Part shown: positions 3,410 through 46,367 of the stretch, in pieces
How positions within the stretch are numbered: the stretch's first letter is position 1
Layout: each line of letters opens with the position of its first letter
Assembly: GCF_012272815.1 (NCBI RefSeq)
Contig: NZ_JAAWWL010000001.1
Coordinates: 832,154-896,153, forward strand
DNA: 64,000 nucleotides
Origin: Croceivirga thetidis
GTDB lineage: Bacteria; Bacteroidota; Bacteroidia; Flavobacteriales; Flavobacteriaceae
Reading direction: 5' to 3'
Translations under genes and position numbers: made by a program
The notes under the pieces: model-generated
What the model saw: the letters and a program-made list of their open reading frames with translations, nothing else
Told to the model about the DNA's origin: nothing
Databases searched by the model: none

Positions 3410-6400
3410 CTAAATTCTAATTGCGCCCACACCAGCATCCCAAAGCTTCTTATTGAATTCTGGTATTGCGGTTTTTGTGAGCTTACTTGCTCTAGATTTT
3501 AATGTTGTCCACTGCGCATCAAGCTCTGCTTTCCTATCTTTTGATGGCTGGTTGACCCTTGGTATGGTACTATTCGTTGCATCAATTAAGAACAGGTATT
3601 CAGCAGTAAATTTATTCGGGAAATTTTCAACATCATCGTAGGCTTTTGATTTACGCTGTATCATGTCTTTATCCCATGCGTCCAATTCTTTTAATAGCTT
3701 TTTGCCTTCGGCTTTGACTGTTTCATCCGTAACGTCTTCAAGAACTGCTTTTAGCTGTTTCTGAACTTTAAATAACGAATTCACGGTATTGTGCATTTCG
3801 GTCAGACGCTTTTCCATATCGTTCATAAACGAATGGTACTCTGTATATTGCGCTGTAGTCGTCTTATACGTCGGCATTGCAACAATCTTTCCTTCAACGG
3901 TTTTTGACATATCACCCGCCTTCAATCGCACGGTATAGCTTCCTGGAGGAACCACATGTCCACTGAATCGAGATTCGATATACGCTCCGGGAATGCCTGG
4001 CAAAATCGGGGTCTTCATATCCCAAACAAAACGGTTTAAACCTTCTTTTTTAGGCAATCTAGGTGCCGGTCTGGGTCCGCCACCATTGTGTGGGACATAA
4101 TCCTTATCCTTTTCCGAAGAAAAGCTTCTAACGACATTGCCTGAAGCATCTAAAACATCCATGGTCAATGCAATAGAATCAGCCAGCTTCGGAAGCTCAT
4201 AGTAAAGCACCATTCCATTAGCTGGGTTTACCCCAGACAGCGTGCTCATGCCATCAAAATTATCGGTATTACCATTCATAGGACCGTACCAAGAACCGTT
4301 CATGGCATCATTGGGCTGGTATAATTTCATGCCCTTTTGTGCAGCATCGTATTGAGATAACATGGTCAAATCGTCCAAGATCCAAAAGGCCCTTCCTGAA
4401 GTCGCCACGATTAAATCCCCATCGTGAATCTTAATGTCAGTGATTGGAGTTTTAGGCAAATTCAATTGAAATTGTTTCCAACTTTTACCTCCATCCCAAG
4501 AAAGATATAGTCCTTTTTCAGTACCTGCATATAGCAAATCTTTGCGCACTGGATCTTCGCGTACTACACGAGTAAAAGCTCCAACAGGAATTCCGGAATT
4601 AATACTCGTCCATGTTTTTCCATAGTCCGTGCTTTTATAAATGGCTGGGGTATGGTCATTGAACTTGTACTTGGTGGTAGCAATGTAAACGGTTGCCTTG
4701 TCATGCGGAGAAACCTCAATTGCGTTGACTAAAGATTCCCCTAAGTTTTTAGGAGTTATGTTCTGCCAGCTTTCCCCATTGTCTTTGGTTATATGAACAA
4801 AACCATCGTCACTGCCGGTGTAGAAAACACCTGCTTCGTGCGGTGATTCCAATACATAGGCCAGGGTTCCATAGTTCTCAGCGCCTACGGCTTCATTAGT
4901 GTATGGCCCACCACCATTACCTTGTTTGGCATCGATATCACGTGTTAAATCGGGGGACATTTCCTCCCAGGTCACCCCCATATCACGGGTTCTCAATAAC
5001 AACTGGGCGCCATGGTAAAAAGTATTATCCTCATGTTGTGAACGTAAGGTTGGGGCATTCCAATTGTACAGATATTTCATATCACGGGCTTCCCTACCCA
5101 AATACTGAATCGGTGCCGCCATAACGGAAGTGGTTGCTTTAGATTCCATATCCAAAACATTGATGGTACCTAAATAACTTCCGCCCATTACATACCTAGG
5201 GTTGTCCGGATCAAAGGCCAAAAAGGCACTTTCTCCTCCAGCAGAAGGACTAAAGTCAGACATGGTTATACCACCCCTCCCAACAGACATATTGGCAACC
5301 ATGGCCGAGGAGTAATCTTGTTGACCTGCATAAATGTTGTAAGGAAATAGATTGTCGGTATTGATTCGGTAAAACTGCCCTGTAGGCATATTAACCTGAG
5401 AAGACCAGGTTTTGCCGAAGTCAAAACTTACTGCAGCTCCCCCATCATTGGCAATCACCATATTCCTGTTGTTATTGGGGTTTATCCATAAATCATGGTA
5501 ATCGCCATGGGTACCTGTTAATCGCTTCCAAGTTTTCCCGCCATCCATTGACCGTAGCGCAGGGGCGCTCAATACGTAAACAATATTTTCGTCGGTTGGG
5601 TCCGTAAAAACCTCAATATAGTACCAAGCACGTTGGGTTAACCGGTTATCACCGCTGACCAAACTCCAAGACTTACCAGCATTGTTTGAAACAAATAGTC
5701 CACCTTTGTCTTGGTTGCTGTCGCTTTCGATCAAAGCGTAAACCTTATTTGAATTTACTGGACTCACGGAAATTGCCATTTTTCCTTTTTCCTTTGGTAA
5801 CCCTGTGGTCATTTCTGTCCAAGTTTCTCCGGCATCGGTCGACTTATATAGTCCACTACCTTCTCCACCACTAACGACCATATTTGGTTTTCGCTGATGT
5901 TCCCACATGGCGGCATACATAATTTCAGGATAGTTGGCATCCATTGAAAGTTCAGCGCAGCCGGTTAAATTGTTGACGAAAAGGGTGTTCTTCCAAGTTT
6001 TTCCGCCATCGGTGGACTTGTAGATTCCGCGTTCTTTATTGGGTCCGTACAATTGGCCTTGAGCAGCTACATATACAATATCTGGATTGGTGGGATGGAT
6101 AATAATCCGTGAAATATGATGCGTGGCTTCAAGCCCCAAATGTTTCCATGTCTTACCTGCATCTGTGGATTTATATACACCATCACCGTAAGAAGTCATT
6201 ACGCCACGTGGTGCGTGTTCTCCCATACCCACATATACAATATTTGGGTTATGGGTTGAAACGGCTACTGCTCCCACAGAGCCCATTTCAAAAAAGCCGT
6301 CTGAAATATTCTTCCACCGTTGACCGGCATCCTCGGTTTTCCATAGACCCCCTCCGGTGGTACCCATATAATACGTCATAGGGTCACCGATTACACCTGA

Positions 6401-6532
6401 CGCTGAAACCGAACGTCCTCCTCGAAACGGTCCAATATTTCTAAATTTCAAGGGTTTAAAATATTCCTCGGCCGTTTGTGCGACGGCCAGTGCCCCAAAA
6501 AAGAGGGCTGCGATAAAAAGTACTTTTTTCAT
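3410..6532 (-). CDS. Secreted Asp-box beta-propeller protein (VPS10/sortilin-like), copy 2
   Basis: A 1040-residue exported protein. Signal peptide [19 protein letters not shown]. Residues about 25-760 carry at least ten Asp-box motifs of the S/TxDxGxTW type ([40 protein letters not shown] and others), the hallmark of BNR/sortilin-type propellers and probably two propellers. The last 280 residues are a beta-rich domain followed by a helical segment. Such proteins are often annotated as glycosyl hydrolases, but no catalytic residues can be assigned here. It starts only 9 bases after the stop of the paralogue at 6542, so the two are probably one transcript. Probably periplasmic or outer-membrane exposed. 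Confidence 0.85.
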
Positions 6533-6541
6533 TACAAATTA

Positions 6542-9500
6542 TTAGTCTTCTATGGATAAATAGTCCAATCCTAGTTGGTTGAATTCGGTGTTAAATGCTT
6601 TCATTTCTTCAGCCACCAACTTATCAAAAGTGTCAAGCTGTGCATTAATTTTTGTGGTCATCTCATTTTTTACCGCAATATCTTGGGCTGTTGGTGGAAA
6701 ATCGTCTATCCCAACGAGTCTGTTTAGATGGGCTAGTTTGTTGGTCAAACGAATCGGAAAGTTCAATGGATCTTGATTACTTCTGTTCTTAGTTTGGTAT
6801 AATGCCTTTTCAATTTCACCAAAACTCTCTTTCATCTTTTTGGCCTTTTCCACGAGGCCTTTTGTCGACTCGTTATCCTTATGCTGTTTGGTAAAAGCAT
6901 CTAATTTTTCGTTAATGGCCCGAATTTTTTTAATGGATTCATGAGCCTTATTTACAGTCTCATTTATGCTGGTGATAAAATCAAATTGCTTTTGCATATC
7001 TGCAACTGAAACCTCAGCTCTTGGATCGGCAATGATTTTAAACGTCTGGCTTTGGCTAACTCCGTTTTTGTTCAAATGAACCTTATAACTGCCAGGTACT
7101 GCCTTTGCACCATCAAAACCTGCAGCCCAAAAAATCATACCTGGAAGTTTTTCAGCACCTGTTCCACGCGTATTCCAAACGTGAGTGTTCCCTCCTTTTT
7201 CTACTTTCAGTTTGTTTTTCTTTTCTTTCGTAAACGTACTGAAGTTGGCCAAGGTATCACCTGCCATTGAAGTGTAGGTCAAACTGATGCTGTCTTTCTC
7301 GGACATATCTTTTAAATAAAAATGTGTTACCACCCCATTCGGGTGATTTTGTCCAGCGGTCAAACTTGGTTTGCTAGCCGCCCTACCTTTAGTTCGGTAA
7401 CTATCTTTAGGGGCGAACAACTTCATGCCCACATTTGCATCAGCTGGCTTTGTTTGGTGCAGAACAGTTAGGTCATCGATTAACCAAAGACTGCGCCCTT
7501 GGGTAGCAACAATTAAATTATTGTCTTTAATGGCCAAATCGGTCACTGGGACGATAGGAAGATTCAATTGAAACTTCTCCCATTTTGCACCATCATTGAA
7601 CGAAATATACATGCCTGTTTCGGTACCCGCATACAAGAGTCCTTTTTGTTTTGGATCTTCGCGTACTACCCTGGTAAAGTGCTCGCTTTCTATACCGTTG
7701 GTAATTTTGGTCCATGTCTTGCCATAATCCGTAGTCTTATAGAGATATGGCGTGAAATCACCGAGTTTATAGCGAGTTCCAGCAACATAGCAAGTGCCTT
7801 CATCAAAAGCAGAAGGTTCAACGCTATTGATCATCATCCATTCAGGCATACCGGCGGGCGTAACATTGCTCCAATTTGCACCTCCATCTTGGGTAATATG
7901 AATCAATCCGTCGTCACTACCAACCCACATCAAGCCTTCCTTTAATGGACTTTCATTGGCGGCAAAGATGGTACAATAGTACTCTACACCCGTATTATCT
8001 TGAGTAATTGGACCACCACTACTCACCAATTTATCAGGGTCGTTACGGGTAAGGTCATCGCTTAACAATTCCCAACTCTGCCCTTCGTTCGTACTTAAAT
8101 GCACATGTTGTGAGAAGGTGTATAATTTTTTAGGATCATGTTTACTAAAAATGATGGGGAAATTCCATTGAAAACGATATTTCATTCCCTCAGCGCCATA
8201 TCCCATGGGATTATCAGGCCATACATTAATACCACGAACCGTGCCTGCATCGTGGTTTACACGAGTTAAAAATCCACCATAACTTCCGCCATAAACGATA
8301 TCATTGTTCGTTGGGTCAATGGCCAAATGGGCAGACTCACCACCTGCGGTCGGTTCCCAATCATCTTCGGTAATGTATCTGCCATCTGAACGATGATTAA
8401 CCCGAAGGGTAGAATTATCTTGCTGCGCAACATAAATACGATACGGAAAAGCATTATCCGTAGTAACGCGATAATACTGTGCGGTAGGTTGGTTATAGTA
8501 TGTGCTCCAGGTCTCACCACCATCATAGGAAACTTGTGCTCCGCCATCATCACCAATGATCATGCGTTGTGAATTTTCAGGTGCAATCCATAAATCATGG
8601 TGGTCGCCATGGGGAGCATTGAACGTATTGAAAGTTTTACCTCCATCAGTAGACTTGTGGTATCGAACGTTCAAAACATAAACTACATCTTCATCTTCGG
8701 TATCCGCATATACGCGAGTGTAATACCAAGCTCGTTGACGCAGTTTACGTTCGCTATTGATTTGTGTCCACGTTTTCCCACCGTTGTCCGAACGGTAAAG
8801 CCCTCCTTTTTCCTTGTTCTCAACGATAGCAAATACACGTTCAGAATTAACTGGAGATACTGAAACACCAATGATACCCAAGGTATCCTTTGGAAAGCCC
8901 TCATTTTTCGAAATCTCGGTCCAGGTTTCACCACTATCGGTACTCTTCCATAGTGCAGAACCCTCACCTCCACTACTTAAGGAATATGGTGTCCGTTGGG
9001 CCCTCCATGAAGAAGCATACAATATTCTAGGATTGTTGGGGTCAAAGGTCAAATCAACAAAACCAGATTGGTCATTGACAAACAGCTTTTTCTGCCATGT
9101 TTTACCGCCATCGGTCGATTTATATATACCGCGTTCTTGGGTGGGTTTATAGATATTACCTAATACGGCCGCATAAATCGTATTATGGTCAGTAGGATGA
9201 ATGCGTATACGTGGAACATGCCGGCTGTTCTTTAAACCTGCAAAAGCCCATGTTTTTCCAGCGTCTTCTGTTTTCCAAATTCCATACCCGCTGGATACAT
9301 TTCCGCGAAGGGTTTTTTCACCACCACCAACATAAATCACATTGGGATCACTTTTCGCCACTTCAACCGCTCCGATACTTCCTCCAAAATAACCATCGGA
9401 GATATTGGCCCAGGTACGGCCCCCATCCAAAGTTTTCCAGACCCCACCGCCAGTGGCTCCAAAATAAAACAAGTTAGGTTCACCTGGCACTCCAGTTACA

Positions 9501-9676
9501 GCAGCCGAACGCCCACCTCGGTGTGGACCTATAGATCGATACTCTAGGCTCGAATACAATTCACTCGGAATATCTGGTGAAGACTGTCTAGAATTTCTGC
9601 GTTGTGCATCAGAAAAAAATGGGAATAACAAAAGCGAAAACATGAATATGCTCGCCCTTAACGTAAAGGATTTCAT
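6542..9676 (-). CDS. Secreted Asp-box beta-propeller protein (VPS10/sortilin-like), copy 1
   Basis: A 1044-residue paralogue of the protein encoded just downstream, with the same architecture. There is a signal peptide ending near SDAQ, and at least ten Asp boxes ([60 protein letters not shown]). An Ig-like/beta domain and a helical C-terminal tail of about 130 residues follow. Shared stretches such as YRSIGPHRGGRS against [12 protein letters not shown] and FTRVVREDP in both show duplication and divergence. It is divergent from the DUF1080 lipoprotein at 9781. The substrate or ligand is unknown; the older label of glycosyl hydrolase is not supported by visible catalytic residues. Confidence 0.85.
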   Translation of the reverse strand: MKSFTLRASIFMFSLLLFPFFSDAQRRNSRQSSPDIPSELYSSLEYRSIGPHRGGRSAAVTGVPGEPNLFYFGATGGGVWKTLDGGRTWANISDGYFGGSIGAVEVAKSDPNVIYVGGGEKTLRGNVSSGYGIWKTEDAGKTWAFAGLKNSRHVPRIRIHPTDHNTIYAAVLGNIYKPTQERGIYKSTDGGKTWQKKLFVNDQSGFVDLTFDPNNPRILYASSWRAQRTPYSLSSGGEGSALWKSTDSGETWTEISKNEGFPKDTLGIIGVSVSPVNSERVFAIVENKEKGGLYRSDNGGKTWTQINSERKLRQRAWYYTRVYADTEDEDVVYVLNVRYHKSTDGGKTFNTFNAPHGDHHDLWIAPENSQRMIIGDDGGAQVSYDGGETWSTYYNQPTAQYYRVTTDNAFPYRIYVAQQDNSTLRVNHRSDGRYITEDDWEPTAGGESAHLAIDPTNNDIVYGGSYGGFLTRVNHDAGTVRGINVWPDNPMGYGAEGMKYRFQWNFPIIFSKHDPKKLYTFSQHVHLSTNEGQSWELLSDDLTRNDPDKLVSSGGPITQDNTGVEYYCTIFAANESPLKEGLMWVGSDDGLIHITQDGGANWSNVTPAGMPEWMMINSVEPSAFDEGTCYVAGTRYKLGDFTPYLYKTTDYGKTWTKITNGIESEHFTRVVREDPKQKGLLYAGTETGMYISFNDGAKWEKFQLNLPIVPVTDLAIKDNNLIVATQGRSLWLIDDLTVLHQTKPADANVGMKLFAPKDSYRTKGRAASKPSLTAGQNHPNGVVTHFYLKDMSEKDSISLTYTSMAGDTLANFSTFTKEKKNKLKVEKGGNTHVWNTRGTGAEKLPGMIFWAAGFDGAKAVPGSYKVHLNKNGVSQSQTFKIIADPRAEVSVADMQKQFDFITSINETVNKAHESIKKIRAINEKLDAFTKQHKDNESTKGLVEKAKKMKESFGEIEKALYQTKNRSNQDPLNFPIRLTNKLAHLNRLVGIDDFPPTAQDIAVKNEMTTKINAQLDTFDKLVAEEMKAFNTEFNQLGLDYLSIED

Positions 9677-40434: not shown

Positions 40435-40929
40435 ATGAATATTGTAAAAACCATAGCACGTCTAGATTTTTCGAATTTGTGGTTATTGCTAAAATTATCA
40501 ATTGCCCATCTAGGCTATTTATGGCCGACTTTTGAAGCTACCAAGGAGTGTATGCAAGTTTCTTCAGAACATTTTGGCAGAAAACATTATCAAAATGGGC
40601 AGGCAAATGCCTTTCGTCATGCACTTTGGAATGTGCTCATTGCCAAATCTTGTGCCAGAAAAAAGGAAAAATTGAAGAACGCATTGGATTGGACCAAGAA
40701 AATAACTGATTGGCACGAAAAGGCCTTTTTTAGCAAATCGCTGCCAATGACAATGGACTATCATAACAACGCTGTGGGTAGGTGGCTCTTTGAAACCAAT
40801 TCAAGATACAGCAAAGAGGAATTTATAACCAACTTGTTGGTCCTAACAGCAAAAGCCACACAGATTACCAAAGAAAGTAATCTTGAGCTATATAAAAACC
40901 AATTGGTATATATAACAAATGACCATTAA
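40435..40929 (+). CDS. DUF6973-like protein within the haem operon
   Basis: A 164-residue helical protein with conserved polar motifs: GQANAFRHALWNVLIAKSC, TDWHEKAFF and MDYHNNAVGRWLF. The pattern (N-A-x-R-H-A-x-W-N, H-E and H-N-N-x-x-G) matches what I recall of DUF6973 and suggests a His/Asn metal or hydrolytic centre. It overlaps hemF by 11 bases. Function unknown. Confidence 0.7.
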   Translation: MNIVKTIARLDFSNLWLLLKLSIAHLGYLWPTFEATKECMQVSSEHFGRKHYQNGQANAFRHALWNVLIAKSCARKKEKLKNALDWTKKITDWHEKAFFSKSLPMTMDYHNNAVGRWLFETNSRYSKEEFITNLLVLTAKATQITKESNLELYKNQLVYITNDH

Positions 40930-41827
40930 GGATAAGTTTTACAATTATATCGAGACCCTTCAAGATACCATTACCACAAAACTTGAGGAACTTGATGGTG
41001 TGGCCAAATTTCGCCAAGACTTATGGGAACGCCCTGAAGGCGGTGGCGGGAGAACCCGTGTTATTGAAAATGGGGCAGTATTTGAAAAAGGAGGCGTAAA
41101 TATATCTGCCGTTCACGGTGCGTTACCTGAAAGCATGCAAAACTATTTCGGTGTAACAGATGCGGATTTTTTTGCCTGTGGACTCAGTCTTGTAATCCAC
41201 CCTAAAAATCCTTTTGTACCTACGGTACATGCGAACTGGCGCTATTTTGAAATGTATGATAAGAATGGCAACATAGTTGATCAATGGTTTGGGGGTGGTC
41301 AAGACTTAACCCCGTATTACCTTTTTGAAGAAGACGCCCAACATTTTCACGCCACTTGTAAAAATGCCTGTGATGCGCACCATGCCGAGTTTTATAGTAG
41401 ATATAAGAAACGTTGTGACGAATACTTTTGGAACGCACACCGAAATGAAGCCCGAGGTCTTGGTGGTCTTTTCTTCGACTATTGCAAAGCAACGGATGAG
41501 ATGACTATGGAAGACTGGTACAACTTTGTCACCGAAGTCGGTGACAGTTTTTTACAGGCCTATGTACCTATTGTTGTCAAACGTAAGGAGCTGGAATACT
41601 CCTTGGAGCAACGCAATTGGCAAGAAATTAGAAGAGGACGTTACGTCGAGTTCAATTTGGTTCATGATAAGGGTACGCTTTTTGGTTTGCGGACCAATGG
41701 GCGCATTGAAAGTATTTTAATGAGCCTTCCTCCTCATGTGCAATGGCAATACGACCATCATCCCGAAAAAGGGAGCGAGGAAGAAAGATTACTTGAAGTC
41801 TTAAAACACCCAAAAGATTGGGCATAA
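40919..41827 (+). CDS. hemF: Oxygen-dependent coproporphyrinogen III oxidase
   Basis: Converts coproporphyrinogen III to protoporphyrinogen IX using O2. 302 residues, full length: FRQDLWERPEGGGGRTRVIE, GVNISAVHG, VPTVHANWRYFEM, QWFGGGQDLTPYYLFEEDA and GRYVEFNLVHDKGTLFGL. The oxygen-dependent enzyme fits an aerobic life style; no hemN is seen in the window. Confidence 0.97.
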   Translation: MTIKDKFYNYIETLQDTITTKLEELDGVAKFRQDLWERPEGGGGRTRVIENGAVFEKGGVNISAVHGALPESMQNYFGVTDADFFACGLSLVIHPKNPFVPTVHANWRYFEMYDKNGNIVDQWFGGGQDLTPYYLFEEDAQHFHATCKNACDAHHAEFYSRYKKRCDEYFWNAHRNEARGLGGLFFDYCKATDEMTMEDWYNFVTEVGDSFLQAYVPIVVKRKELEYSLEQRNWQEIRRGRYVEFNLVHDKGTLFGLRTNGRIESILMSLPPHVQWQYDHHPEKGSEEERLLEVLKHPKDWA

Positions 41828-41843: not shown

Positions 41844-42632
41844 ATGAAATTAAAGCTTTACCAAATCGATGCTTTTGCGGACCAAGTCTTCACTGGCAAT
41901 CCAGCAGCAGTTTGTCCATTGACTTCTTGGTTGGATGCACCCATAATGCAGAAAATTGCAGAAGAAAACAATCTTGCAGAAACCGCATTTTTCGTAAAAA
42001 AGGGTGAGGTATTTGAATTGCGTTGGTTTACTCCAGAAACTGAAGTTGACCTCTGTGGCCACGCTACATTGGCCACGGCTCATGTAATTTTTGAACATTT
42101 AGGGTATCAAGAAAACCTTGTGAAGTTTTTTTCACCTCGAAGCGGCGAACTCACAGTAAAAAAAGAGTCGGATGGCTCGCTGACCCTAGATTTTCCGGTT
42201 GATGAAACTGTGGCAATTCAAGGTGTAGCTGCAATTAACGAAGCCATTGGAAAAGAACCCCTGAAGACTATAAAAGGCAAGACAGACTACCTCCTTATTT
42301 ACAATTCCCAAAAAGAAGTTGAAGCGATTACCCCAAATTTTCACTTGTTGGACCAGTTGGATTGTCGCGGCGTAATTGTGTCTGCTCCTGGTGATGAAGT
42401 GGATTTTGTGTCAAGGTTCTTTGCTCCGCAATGTGGCATTCCTGAAGACCCTGTAACCGGTTCTGCCCATACCACCATGATTCCTTATTGGTCAAAAGCG
42501 TTAGGCAAAAGAAAATTGAGTGCAAGGCAACTATCAAGTCGGGGTGGTAATTTAATCTGTGAAGATTTAGGTGAACGGGTTGAAATTTCAGGTAAAGCAA
42601 TCACCTATTTGATTGGGGAAATCGAAATTTGA
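41844..42632 (+). CDS. PhzF-family isomerase
   Basis: A 262-residue enzyme of the phenazine biosynthesis PhzF/diaminopimelate epimerase fold: YQIDAFADQVFTGNPAAVCP, NNLAETAFFVKK with the catalytic Glu46, RWFTPETEVDLCGHATLATA, FFAPQCGIPEDPVTGSAH and LSSRGGNL. Most such genes in non-phenazine producers have unknown substrates. Only 8 bases separate its stop from that of the convergent helicase. Confidence 0.92.
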   Translation: MKLKLYQIDAFADQVFTGNPAAVCPLTSWLDAPIMQKIAEENNLAETAFFVKKGEVFELRWFTPETEVDLCGHATLATAHVIFEHLGYQENLVKFFSPRSGELTVKKESDGSLTLDFPVDETVAIQGVAAINEAIGKEPLKTIKGKTDYLLIYNSQKEVEAITPNFHLLDQLDCRGVIVSAPGDEVDFVSRFFAPQCGIPEDPVTGSAHTTMIPYWSKALGKRKLSARQLSSRGGNLICEDLGERVEISGKAITYLIGEIEI

Positions 42633-42640
42633 TAGATTAG

Positions 42641-45277
42641 TTATTTCCAAACGGTTACCCTTTCAGGTGGCTCCACAAACTGATATAAGATATGTGAAAG
42701 TTTTGCAGCTACCAAGAGCTTTCTTCCCTCTTTAGTTCGTACATATTGCAACTCTCCGCCACCAACATACCTATTCCAATATTTGATAAATTCTTGGGCG
42801 TCTTGCTTTCGCTTTCCAAATTCAGAAGGCACTGCATAGAATTGCCTGTATCCCAGCAATCGTTTAAACCTGTTTTGAATGATCAAGTATCTCGGGTTTT
42901 CAATAGGTAAAATCAGTTCTTCCATAAAACCTATTAAAAGGGACGAATCTTGTAATGACAATCCAACAAAATTTATCGAATACCAACCGTCCTTATGCTG
43001 TTCGGAAATAACTTTTATTTCCTCCTCTCCCTGCACCACCTTCCCGGTAGACAAGGTCAATTTTATCAACATTTCAGCAATTTTTATTGCACGTTTGTAT
43101 TGATCCCCGTACAAGAAAAATATTCGTATCGCCTTAAATAATTTTGGCAATACTCGAATACCCAAGAAAAAACATAGGATGAAGAATAATGCAACGTACC
43201 CTTTATTAAGTAATAGTTTAAAATTTTTGATTAGAAATTCTGGAAGGAAATATAGACTTACTAGAATAACTTCATAAACTAAATACTTCAGAACGTTCAA
43301 ACCATAAAACTGCTTTTTTTGTGTATAATTTTCGCCTTTTTGAAAAGGCACATGAAGCGCATTAATTAGCACTTTACCTTTTACTATTGCGTTGTTCCAT
43401 CGGTTACTAATATTCTCTGGATTATTAGCTTCAGAAAACATTTTCAGGTTGGTTTCATTGATTTTTTGAGAATCGTTTAGCACACTGTCAATCCTCATCC
43501 TATCCATTCCATTTTCGATGTACAGCTCTCCATCCAATGAAACCCCACTAAATGCCTTGAAACGTTTGGCTAACATTCGAACATCATCACCACCATTTTC
43601 TACTGTGGGGTCTAAACATGCCAAATGCCAAATTCTACCAACCTTTTCATCGAATCCGGGATCTATTCGAATTGCTCGACCCCTCATCTGATTCGATGAA
43701 ACAAAAGAGCCCACGTATGAAGCCAATATGAGTGTATTAATTGAAGGTGCATCCCAACCTTCACCCAATAACGATTTTGTACCAATCAGTATTTTAATAT
43801 GTCCGTTAGCAAATAAGCTGCCCAATACTGAAACCACCCGTTGATTATCCCCTTTTATTTTGACCGAAACATGACCATCACAATTTTTCAATTCATTTAT
43901 GGCCAGTTCATCTTCGGGTACGATTTCAAATAAATTTTCAAGAATCCTCTCGGAAACCAAAACAATGCTCCCTGTCAGTACGGCTATTTCATCACTCAAT
44001 TCAGTCTTTTGACGCAAATAGTGAAATAGAGGAACAGCTCCCATTTTATTAAGTCTAGAAATTTGACCTGAGGGAATATCAAGAAATTCTTTACAGATAT
44101 AATCCAGTAAAACCACGGCCCTCAGACGTTGCCCAAGATTTTCTATGGCATTTTCAAGAATTTCCTTTACACTATTGAACTTACTTATACTAGTGGCCAA
44201 ATCTTTATAAAGCACGTTTTCACCTACAAAGTTCAACCTGCCCCTAAAAATCACCCCAATCTGTTTTAACCGGTTCTCAATTGTATTGATCAACCCTTCA
44301 TTTTCAACAAAACGATCTCTATGAGTCACTAAGATATTTTCGAGCAAAATTTGGCACCACTTGTAGTCCAAGGCCGGTATTCTGATTTCATCGTCTGAAA
44401 TACCTAGTAATTCCAAATGATTTTTTCTTATTTCAATTCCACAGGCATTTAAAAAAATCAGAATGGACGAAAAAAAAGAAGGCATCTCATAAATATCTTC
44501 CAAATGGTCATCAGGATTCTGATAAAATTCCGATGCCAATAAGAAACCGATAAACTCAGTATCCTTTTGTAAATCAGTAAAAAACGAATTGATTTTTGTT
44601 CGGTACGAGACAATTTTTCTTAAAATGGTTTCCTCGGGCAAGGAAAAGTGTATAAAATCTTGGTGTGGGCATAGATCCCCATTTTTAATAAGGTCAGGTA
44701 CTGCGATCTCATCATCAATTGGTCCGCATAACTTGAAATATTTCTGAAGCTCTAAAAACGAACTATCATAGGGTGGTGTTGCCGTTAGCGCAACAACAGT
44801 AATGCCTTCGATTTTCTTGAGTTCCCACAAGGCCTTCCACCATTCATTTTTTAAATGGTGGGCTTCATCAAGGACAATGGTCTTGATATTTGCTTGGGTA
44901 AAATGTTCAATTAAACTCTCAGCAGATTCAGATTTTGTCTTTTTATGTAAAGCATACAAAGACTGATAAGTGCAAAAATTAATGGCTTGTAACTTGTTGA
45001 TATCCTTAGAATAGTTCTTGAAATCAGCATTTTTAGTAAAAAAAGTTTGAAGCCTAGATAACCACTGATTTCTTATCGTCAAAGTCGGAGAAAGAACCAG
45101 CGTATTTTCCTTTAGGCGAATGGCCACTTCCAAACCTAAAATCGTCTTTCCGGAACCCGGGGGTGCAACAACATGCAAGTGGTTGTCAACAATATGGTCC
45201 TGAAAATTATCTAAGAATTTCGCCTGATAATCCCGCCAAACATATTTAAATCGAAGATTGGTTAATGCGCTTTTCAA
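42641..45277 (-). CDS. SF2 helicase with two internal membrane helices (defence-type candidate)
   Basis: An 878-residue protein. Residues 1-200 are a RecA-like helicase lobe of the type III restriction/DEAD-DEAH group: Q-like YVWRDYQAKF, Walker A APPGSGKT (38-45), LSPTLTIRNQW, DEAH at 137-140 and ALTATPP (163-169). A helical insertion (about 200-480) precedes lobe two, with LIGTKSLLGEGWDAPS (about 497-512) and the arginine-finger motif QMRGRAIRID (about 529-538). Unusually, two hydrophobic helices follow (about 663-683 and 693-711), then a basic C-terminal domain of about 165 residues with no recognised match. The start is TTG; a stop lies just upstream. It is antisense to the haem genes and separates hemF-phzF from hemB. 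Confidence 0.85.
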   Translation of the reverse strand: MKSALTNLRFKYVWRDYQAKFLDNFQDHIVDNHLHVVAPPGSGKTILGLEVAIRLKENTLVLSPTLTIRNQWLSRLQTFFTKNADFKNYSKDINKLQAINFCTYQSLYALHKKTKSESAESLIEHFTQANIKTIVLDEAHHLKNEWWKALWELKKIEGITVVALTATPPYDSSFLELQKYFKLCGPIDDEIAVPDLIKNGDLCPHQDFIHFSLPEETILRKIVSYRTKINSFFTDLQKDTEFIGFLLASEFYQNPDDHLEDIYEMPSFFSSILIFLNACGIEIRKNHLELLGISDDEIRIPALDYKWCQILLENILVTHRDRFVENEGLINTIENRLKQIGVIFRGRLNFVGENVLYKDLATSISKFNSVKEILENAIENLGQRLRAVVLLDYICKEFLDIPSGQISRLNKMGAVPLFHYLRQKTELSDEIAVLTGSIVLVSERILENLFEIVPEDELAINELKNCDGHVSVKIKGDNQRVVSVLGSLFANGHIKILIGTKSLLGEGWDAPSINTLILASYVGSFVSSNQMRGRAIRIDPGFDEKVGRIWHLACLDPTVENGGDDVRMLAKRFKAFSGVSLDGELYIENGMDRMRIDSVLNDSQKINETNLKMFSEANNPENISNRWNNAIVKGKVLINALHVPFQKGENYTQKKQFYGLNVLKYLVYEVILVSLYFLPEFLIKNFKLLLNKGYVALFFILCFFLGIRVLPKLFKAIRIFFLYGDQYKRAIKIAEMLIKLTLSTGKVVQGEEEIKVISEQHKDGWYSINFVGLSLQDSSLLIGFMEELILPIENPRYLIIQNRFKRLLGYRQFYAVPSEFGKRKQDAQEFIKYWNRYVGGGELQYVRTKEGRKLLVAAKLSHILYQFVEPPERVTVWK

Positions 45278-45350
45278 ATAATTGGCAGGTTAGTTGAATA
45301 TTTAAACAAAGATGTCATTTTATATGAAACTAAAGCTTGCCAGCACTCCT

Positions 45351-45358
45351 TATCTTTG
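45351..45358 (+). promoter_or_regulatory. Candidate -7 box for hemB
   Basis: TATCTTTG fits TAnnTTTG exactly. The predicted start near 45363 gives a 12-base leader before the ATG at 45375. This supports that start over the ATG at 45312. A convincing -33 TTG at 17-23 bases is not seen. Confidence 0.45.
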
Positions 45359-45374
45359 TCTTAAAACAAAGTAC

Positions 45375-46367
45375 ATGTACCCACTGATCCGAAACAGAAG
45401 ACTTAGAGCCTCAGAATCCATAAGAAGGTTGGTTCGTGAAACAGTACTTACACCAGACGATTTTTTGGTGCCCTTGTTTGTTGTTGAAGGAAAAGGCGTC
45501 AAAGAAGAGATTGCCTCAATGCCCAATTACTATCGCTTAAGCCTTGATAATCTAGAAAAGGAGGTGAAAGAATTGTGGAATATGGGCCTCTGTGCCGTAC
45601 TACTTTTTGTCAAGGTACCGGATAACTTAAAAGACAATGCAGGTACCGAAGCCTTAAACCCTGATGGATTGATGCAACGGGCCATCAAGACCGTAAAAAA
45701 TGCATGCGCAGATATGTTGGTCATGACCGATGTCGCCCTTGACCCCTACTCTTCCTTTGGGCATGATGGCATTGTCGCCGATGGAACGATTTTGAATGAT
45801 GAAACCGCCCTTACTCTAGCCAAAATGAGTAGTTCCCATGCACAGGCGGGAGCCGATTTTGTGGCACCCAGTGATATGATGGACGGTCGGATTTTAACCA
45901 TCCGTGAGGCTTTAGAAAAAGAAGGGTTCACCGATACCGGAATCATGAGCTATGCGGCAAAATATGCAAGTGCTTTTTATGGACCATTTCGAGATGCCTT
46001 AGATTCTGCGCCTGTGGATATAAAAGACGTACCCAAAGACAAAAAGACCTATCAAATGGACCCAGCGAATCGCTTGGCGGCCCTGAAAGAAACTGAAATG
46101 GACGTTGCTGAAGGTGCCGATATCGTTATGGTAAAACCAGGACTTTCGTACTTGGATATTGTTCGCGAAGTAAAAGATGCCGTTGAAGTGCCCGTAGCGG
46201 CGTATCAAGTTTCCGGTGAATACGCCATGCTCAAAGCGGCAGCCGAAAAGGGTTGGTTAGACCATGATGCTGTGATGCTTGAACAACTTATGGCCTTTAA
46301 AAGGGCGGGTGCAAGTATTATTGCAACCTATTTCGCCAAAGAAGCTACCAAATTGCTTAATTGGTAA
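45375..46367 (+). CDS. hemB: Delta-aminolevulinic acid dehydratase (porphobilinogen synthase)
   Basis: Condenses two 5-aminolevulinate molecules to porphobilinogen. 330 residues from the ATG at 45375 (MYPLIRNRRLRASESIRRLV): DFLVPLFVVEGKGVKEEI, MTDVALDPYSSFGHDGIV, DFVAPSDMMDGR, YAAKYASAFYGPFRDA and the Schiff-base region MVKPGLSYLDIV. The metal site lacks the Cys triad of zinc-type enzymes (ALDPYSSFGHDG), so it is the Mg2+-dependent type. It is cut off from the rest of the haem operon by the inverted helicase gene. Confidence 0.97.
   Translation: MYPLIRNRRLRASESIRRLVRETVLTPDDFLVPLFVVEGKGVKEEIASMPNYYRLSLDNLEKEVKELWNMGLCAVLLFVKVPDNLKDNAGTEALNPDGLMQRAIKTVKNACADMLVMTDVALDPYSSFGHDGIVADGTILNDETALTLAKMSSSHAQAGADFVAPSDMMDGRILTIREALEKEGFTDTGIMSYAAKYASAFYGPFRDALDSAPVDIKDVPKDKKTYQMDPANRLAALKETEMDVAEGADIVMVKPGLSYLDIVREVKDAVEVPVAAYQVSGEYAMLKAAAEKGWLDHDAVMLEQLMAFKRAGASIIATYFAKEATKLLNW

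Follow-up and report, generated by a model that had tools for sequence, protein, structure and literature searches.

A patchily distributed SF2 helicase with a probable membrane hairpin at the hemF-hemB site of Flavobacteriaceae

Why does a helicase gene lie among the haem biosynthesis genes of Croceivirga thetidis, and what might its product do? We addressed these questions in a window of 64,000 nucleotides, the whole stretch of DNA analysed, to which the coordinates below refer unless another locus is named. The helicase gene (42641-45277, minus strand) is an intact ORF of 878 residues with a TTG start, and its protein gave a single match against its own genome. On one side lie hemF (40919-41827, plus strand; oxygen-dependent coproporphyrinogen oxidase) and a PhzF-family gene (41844-42632, plus strand), which is convergent with the helicase. 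On the other side lies the divergent hemB (porphobilinogen synthase). Among the flanking genes, hemA, hemC, hemE, hemF, the PhzF-family gene, and hemB scored above an NCBIfam cutoff, and a hemD-like gene scored under its cutoffs. When the hemB ORF was listed from 45312, 10 congeners aligned from query residues 5 to 22 (7 of the 10 from residue 13 or later); a protein begun at 45375 matched porphobilinogen synthase from its own residue 3. The true hemB start is most likely 45375 rather than 45312, judging from these alignments (gene at 45375-46367, plus strand), and the distance between helicase and hemB is therefore 97 bp. The antisense position between phzF and hemB and the TTG start, both described in a sequence-only reading of this DNA, were confirmed. 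Elsewhere in the window (3410-9676), two consecutive ORFs of 1,040 and 1,044 residues match Sortilin-Vps10/BNR repeat families.

The protein has the features of an SF2 helicase, with the core motifs (Q-like, I, II [DEAH], III, V, and VI) and two RecA-like domains. Domain borders are our own reading of the secondary structure in an AlphaFold2 model, for which the input was a 77-row family alignment (mean pLDDT of the whole model, 83.8; pTM, 0.79). RecA-like domain 1 (residues 1-203; 44669-45277, minus strand) contains WRDYQ, APPGSGKT, DEAH, and LTATPP, and RecA-like domain 2 (residues 386-600; 43478-44122, minus strand) contains GTKSLLGEGWD and SNQMRGRAIR. Between them is a mostly helical insert (residues 204-385; 44123-44668, minus strand), for which PDB matches to XPB, Hef, and MDA5/RIG-I were obtained. 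In the model, these parts are followed by linker helices, a hairpin, and an alpha/beta C-terminal domain. Pfam searches detected ResIII at residues 12-169 (E = 9.3e-23), Helicase_C at residues 487-538 (E = 7.9e-6), and weaker matches to motor-type families. Over the 77 rows, APPGSGKT, DEAH, and QMRGRAIR were invariant or at least 90% conserved, and LTATPP was invariant; the A preceding LTATPP occurred in 46 rows, and the ID following QMRGRAIR was variable. The complete SF2 motor proposed earlier was thus upheld by Pfam, by the motif cores retained in the family, and by the model. The PDB fold matches of the protein were XPB and Hef first, followed by MDA5/RIG-I, FANCM, Rad5, SNF2-type motors, and RadD, which are mostly duplex translocases.

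The hydrophobic part of the protein was also predicted consistently. Kyte-Doolittle analysis of the window copy delimited segments at residues 665-683 and 695-713, and the AlphaFold2 model places helices at residues 659-684 (43226-43303, minus strand) and 694-723 (43109-43198, minus strand), with a pLDDT of 57 to 78 in the hairpin. The two hydrophobic helices that had been noted at about residues 663-711 were accordingly recovered by both approaches. In the family, the mean hydropathy of the best 19-residue stretch was 1.82 for the first segment and 1.85 for the second. A 19-residue stretch of at least 1.3 was present in 65 of the 77 rows for the first segment and in 71 for the second; in each of two control regions, none of the 77 rows had one. 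As measured by the Kyte-Doolittle scale only, two hydrophobic segments of membrane-spanning length are therefore kept in relatives, and the hydropathy prediction holds. By this evidence the hydrophobic hairpin is a family trait, and the model and the hydropathy together suggest that the protein is probably membrane tethered.

The same data bear on a different explanation, in which the helices would not be anchors and would instead form a buried hydrophobic hairpin or an oligomerization element of a soluble helicase. At a threshold of 1.6, both segments were found in 46 of the 77 rows, one in 26, and none in 5. Two glutamates lie inside hydrophobic helix 1 and are widely kept (E669 in 56 rows and E680 in 55). 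The mean numbers of K+R and D+E were 4.7 and 2.5 in the 21 positions before helix 1, 1.8 and 0.4 in the 13-position loop, and 6.2 and 0.9 in the 21 positions after helix 2; as a topology signal, this charge distribution is indecisive. These rows that lose a segment at the higher threshold, the modest pLDDT, the glutamates, and the weak charge asymmetry speak for a soluble protein. The separation from the control regions at 1.3 argues against it, and we consider a soluble helicase rather unlikely.

The C-terminal domain (residues 726-878; 42644-43102, minus strand) has no assigned family. Residues Y797, P817, W834, G851, R852, and W877 are invariant over the 77 rows, and the domain modelled alone had a pLDDT of 85.3. 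Pfam gave no match at E = 0.5 for this part of the window copy and scattered weak matches only for those of relatives. With the domain alone, Foldseek returned nothing at E = 0.001; the domain profile, searched against PDB sequences, gave 0 matches. The best VIA Z score, 4.5, was to designed ferredoxin-like proteins and is uninformative. The domain is therefore as unrecognized as first described, with no Pfam family and no convincing fold match.

The TTG start (45275-45277, minus strand) had been taken as a sign of acquisition, a view that the family comparison overturned. No ATG or GTG is available in the window copy between the upstream stop and the conserved WRxYQ motif. Over the same interval in 113 distinct loci (window left out, decayed copies kept in), the codons on offer were TTG only in 76, ATG in 25, GTG only in 9, and GTG plus TTG in 3. 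TTG is thus a family trait. In 62 of the 113 loci, the nearest TTG (within 6 to 20 codons) preceded WRxYQ by exactly 13 codons, and the window TTG likewise lies 13 codons before WRDYQ. At a further 16 loci, this position is occupied by ATG (7 loci) or GTG (9 loci). As a control, 842 other ORFs of at least 250 codons from the same loci were scanned over a longer stretch, so that an ATG was more likely to turn up in them: 820 had an ATG in the first 60 codons, 6 had TTG only, 3 had GTG only, and 13 had both or none. In the window, the helicase is the only one of 56 longer ORFs without an ATG in the first 53 codons, and its next ATG is 264 codons on. Relatives that are 37 to 48% identical to the window protein in the alignment keep a weak initiator at one position, which points to selection for low initiation. 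Bacteroidota are said mostly to lack Shine-Dalgarno signals. The conserved weak start allows selection on initiation strength to be tested directly, and we infer that it may limit the toxicity of the helicase.

A weak start would also suit a toxic protein of another kind: a nucleic acid sensor with the hairpin as effector, in which a ligand would drive ATPase activity and the hairpin would permeabilize the membrane in an abortive infection. The RIG-I/MDA5-like fold matches and the glutamates retained in helix 1 are compatible with such a protein. However, few parts of the helicase are less conserved than the hairpin (mean column conservation of 0.44, compared with 0.67 for RecA-like domain 1), and we regard this role as improbable.

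The insertion at the haem genes had been interpreted as a one-gene acquisition, and we rejected this idea as far as a recent event is concerned. The empty site is real. The helicase was absent from all 10 congeneric genomes, with no remnant at E = 1, and in 9 of these the distance from phzF or hemF to hemB is -49 to 427 bp, in agreement with the expectation that the two sides would otherwise be contiguous. In the tenth congener (G006; L185 5006-7546), the hemF-hemB gap contains 2.5 kb of sequence other than the helicase. The same site is nonetheless occupied by 75 of 112 nonidentical copies, window included. Among the other 47 family loci, counting the remnant, a divergent hemB lay within 1.5 kb in 33 and hemF lay within 8 kb on the opposite side in 35; 12 had neither. 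In 80 loci from a genome contig collection, which share genomes with the family set and are in part on short contigs, hemB was divergent within 1.5 kb in 50 and hemF was within 8 kb in 56. Over all 132 loci, including outgroups, hemB flanked the helicase in 83 and hemF in 91. On a FastTree tree of the 112 copies, 7 changes of site state suffice, and 200 shuffles needed at least 26, consistent with a single main entry and a few departures.

Helicase distances also followed those of the flanking haem genes. Over 67 loci, helicase and hemB+hemF distances were correlated (Pearson, 0.62), and the best of 999 permutations reached 0.15. The window copy was not more similar to its relatives than its host genes predict: its mean residual of -3.6 (the standard deviation of all pairs was 6.1) makes it slightly more divergent. 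The shared site, the agreement of distances, and the divergence of the window copy together indicate that the acquisition was old. Agreement between trees was incomplete: 20 of 64 splits were common to both, and 10 of 39 strong helicase splits conflicted with one of 23 strong hemB+hemF splits, so some exchange of the helicase is possible. From these comparisons, the helicase is best read as an old resident of the site, and its patchiness as repeated loss with some exchange. Four copies are decaying and appear as losses in progress: a remnant with stops (L054, genome G084), two frame-broken copies (L155 and L168), and one with a single internal stop (L112). The gene also diverges rapidly, with a median identity of 48.9% where hemB+hemF are 80 to 85% identical. 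One apparent transfer among Winogradskyella species (91.8% protein identity at 84.0% host identity; L102/L105) was dropped, as hemB was the odd piece in DNA profiles. Between L102 and both L097 and L105 (about 6900-8000), hemB DNA is 72 to 79% identical and the adjoining helicase 83 to 94%, near background; this suggests that hemB was replaced in L102 and that the breakpoint lies where hemB meets the helicase. Related genomes with and without the helicase at the hemF-hemB site can serve as natural comparisons.

The divergent intergenic region common to helicase and hemB (45278-45374) contains TATCTTTG (45351-45358, plus strand), a match to TAnnTTTG, which we take to be the Bacteroidetes -7 element, oriented toward hemB. 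In 65 loci with a median helicase-hemB gap of 75 bp, TAnnTTTG occurred on the hemB strand in 58 gaps, compared with 5 expected from base shuffling, and on the helicase strand in 11. It occurred within 250 bp of hemB in only 1 of the 10 congeners without the gene, the one with the 2.5-kb gap sequence. The helicase and a separate putative hemB promoter element thus seem to occur together, in a comparison whose gene-less group is one genus; the element may have arrived with the helicase or may have disappeared with it.

Relatives are scarce even within the family. At E = 1e-20, they were found in 48 of 397 sampled Flavobacteriaceae genomes (window included; one was a remnant), which is far from the constant presence expected of a housekeeping gene. 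In a sample of the phylum, 10 of 296 genomes had a relative at E = 1e-60, and 7 of those 10, window included, were Flavobacteriaceae. The genome contig collection yielded no relative when searched with the single protein; with the family alignment, it yielded at least 589 at E = 1e-3, some perhaps related at the motor level only, and the best 80 of these, which match most or all of the query, were kept. No relative was found in a viral contig collection. The gene thus occurs sparsely in Bacteroidota and has relatives in Paenibacillus and Rhodobacterales. Distant near-full-length relatives came from Paenibacillus (31.8% identity) and from two gut scaffolds (L087 and L088) deposited as "Bacteriophage sp."; these scaffolds are unannotated and may be bacterial. 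A Tritonibacter relative matches in two pieces over 83%. A relative on a Rhodovulum plasmid (L086 7974-10309) is annotated as two genes, with an IS3 transposase about 7.6 kb off, and is likely decayed.

Gene neighbourhoods gave little indication of a defence context. The 93 ORFs in hemF-helicase gaps formed 31 clusters, which include membrane, lipoprotein-like, PhzF, TPR, and thioesterase proteins. The largest cluster (24 ORFs) is YchJ-like, and this protein of about 128 residues (e.g., L042 6526-6909) is the commonest gene of the gap. Pfam analysis of 7 gap proteins identified one C-5 cytosine DNA methylase (L070 4965-6290), which with other gap ORFs is possibly a restriction-modification system. 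The idea that the gap is a defence hotspot was rejected: as far as its contents were looked at, they are mostly ordinary, the L070 methylase excepted. Integron-like cassette arrays around copies elsewhere were likewise rejected; repeats were weak and inconsistent in the five loci searched. Copies outside the haem site occupied 34 loci. Two of these lacked any neighbouring ORF, and another two (L146 and L164) were set aside because they repeat the ORF layouts of L137 and L156. At the remaining 30 loci, at most two neighbours were taken on each side, 107 in total. At E = 1e-5 these matched 24 PADLOC models, including Cas2, mad2, mad3, mad8, and AbiEii, and 23 of the models were matched by a single protein. 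A rescan of 10 chosen neighbours gave two PDC-S33 matches only, and the Cas2 and MADS matches were not located. Since 55 ordinary window genes hit 10 PADLOC models, mostly generic ones such as WYL and subtilase, any defence enrichment around these copies is weak, and a link to defence islands is at most weak.

What, then, might the helicase do? Its patchiness, decay, and quick divergence indicate that it is dispensable and under changing selection. Combined with a duplex-translocase motor that is probably at the membrane, this favours defence. Our leading reading, adopted tentatively, is that the protein is a duplex translocase, scarce and tethered to the membrane, that acts on foreign DNA entering the cell. 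With an even number of helices, the motor and the C-terminal domain would both face the cytosol. There the motor would grip duplex nucleic acid at the inner membrane face, the entry point of phage or plasmid DNA, and would translocate on, strip, or stall the bound duplex; the hairpin and C-terminal domain would position the motor or pass on a signal. The weak TTG start would keep a potentially harmful enzyme scarce, and the most likely role would be single-gene defence against incoming DNA. The motor with its hairpin, the folds of duplex translocases and sensors, the patchiness, decay, and fast evolution, the conserved weak start, and the L070 methylase speak for defence. Against it stand the lack of a matching PADLOC model or viral-contig relative, the weak enrichment among mostly ordinary neighbours, the conserved glutamates of helix 1, and the indecisive charge pattern around the hairpin. 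The long stay at one housekeeping site is also unlike roaming defence genes.

That stay at a fixed site, inherited with its flanks, would suit an accessory membrane DNA-handling enzyme, either a DNA uptake helper or a repair enzyme of membrane-near DNA, comparable to ComFA or RadD. The motor also matches RadD and XPB, no defence model was matched, and the neighbours are mostly ordinary. However, 349 of the 397 family genomes (E = 1e-20) and all 10 congeners gave no match, and the helicase diverges fast, so we think this role possible but doubtful. As for defence, a more specific proposal is that the gene represents a new single-gene immune family: an inner-membrane, RIG-I/Hef-like duplex translocase kept at low dose by its conserved non-AUG start and forming a unit with the outward hemB promoter. 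This is speculative, and we would not expect it to hold in full; if true, the outward promoter would let the helicase enter the haem operon without silencing the downstream gene. Soluble SF2 motors are common, and a helicase with an apparent hairpin of its own and an unassigned domain is a candidate for action where DNA enters the cell.

The protein was compared with several known systems. None of the libraries used (Pfam, NCBIfam, and PADLOC) names it beyond ResIII/Helicase_C. In PADLOC-DB 2.0.0, which excludes newer anti-phage systems, no model matched over most of its length, and the best match (E = 2.4e-5) was to part of a restriction enzyme model, in the motor region. In titles and abstract openings of the open-access literature, we noticed no report of this helicase family or of a bacterial membrane-anchored SF2 helicase. 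The dnd_restrict_1 (TIGR04095) and EcoAI-type type I restriction motors share a ResIII-type motor with it, but it scored 29 bits against 600 and 28.4 against 550, respectively, and it adjoins a PhzF-family gene and hemB, not modification genes. XPB/Rad25 provided the best NCBIfam match (NF045503; E = 4.7e-16, residues 11-157), and archaeal XPB (PDB 5tnu and 6p4f) the best PDB fold match (E = 4e-14). The NF045503 score, however, was 58.4 bits against a cutoff of 610, and the profile matches the first RecA domain only. With Hef/FANCM and RIG-I/MDA5 (PDB 1wp9, 9el5, and 5jcf; fold E = 1e-12 to 1e-13), the helicase shares the helical insert between RecA domains, and in this respect (model helices at 216-384) it resembles RIG-I-like receptors. 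It differs from Hef in its PRK13766 score (22.9 bits against a cutoff of 610) and from all four in its C-terminal part, which in the window copy is a hydrophobic hairpin and a domain without a Pfam match; the terminal signalling or RNA-end-binding domain of RIG-I-like receptors was sought in the C-terminal domain alone, with the uninformative fold results given above. A protein from a Paenibacillus plasmid (WP_152404286.1, "DEAD/DEAH box helicase family protein") has an ATG start on offer and neighbours that are not haem genes, but it aligns over 99% of the length at the identity given above, with the hydrophobic region aligned.
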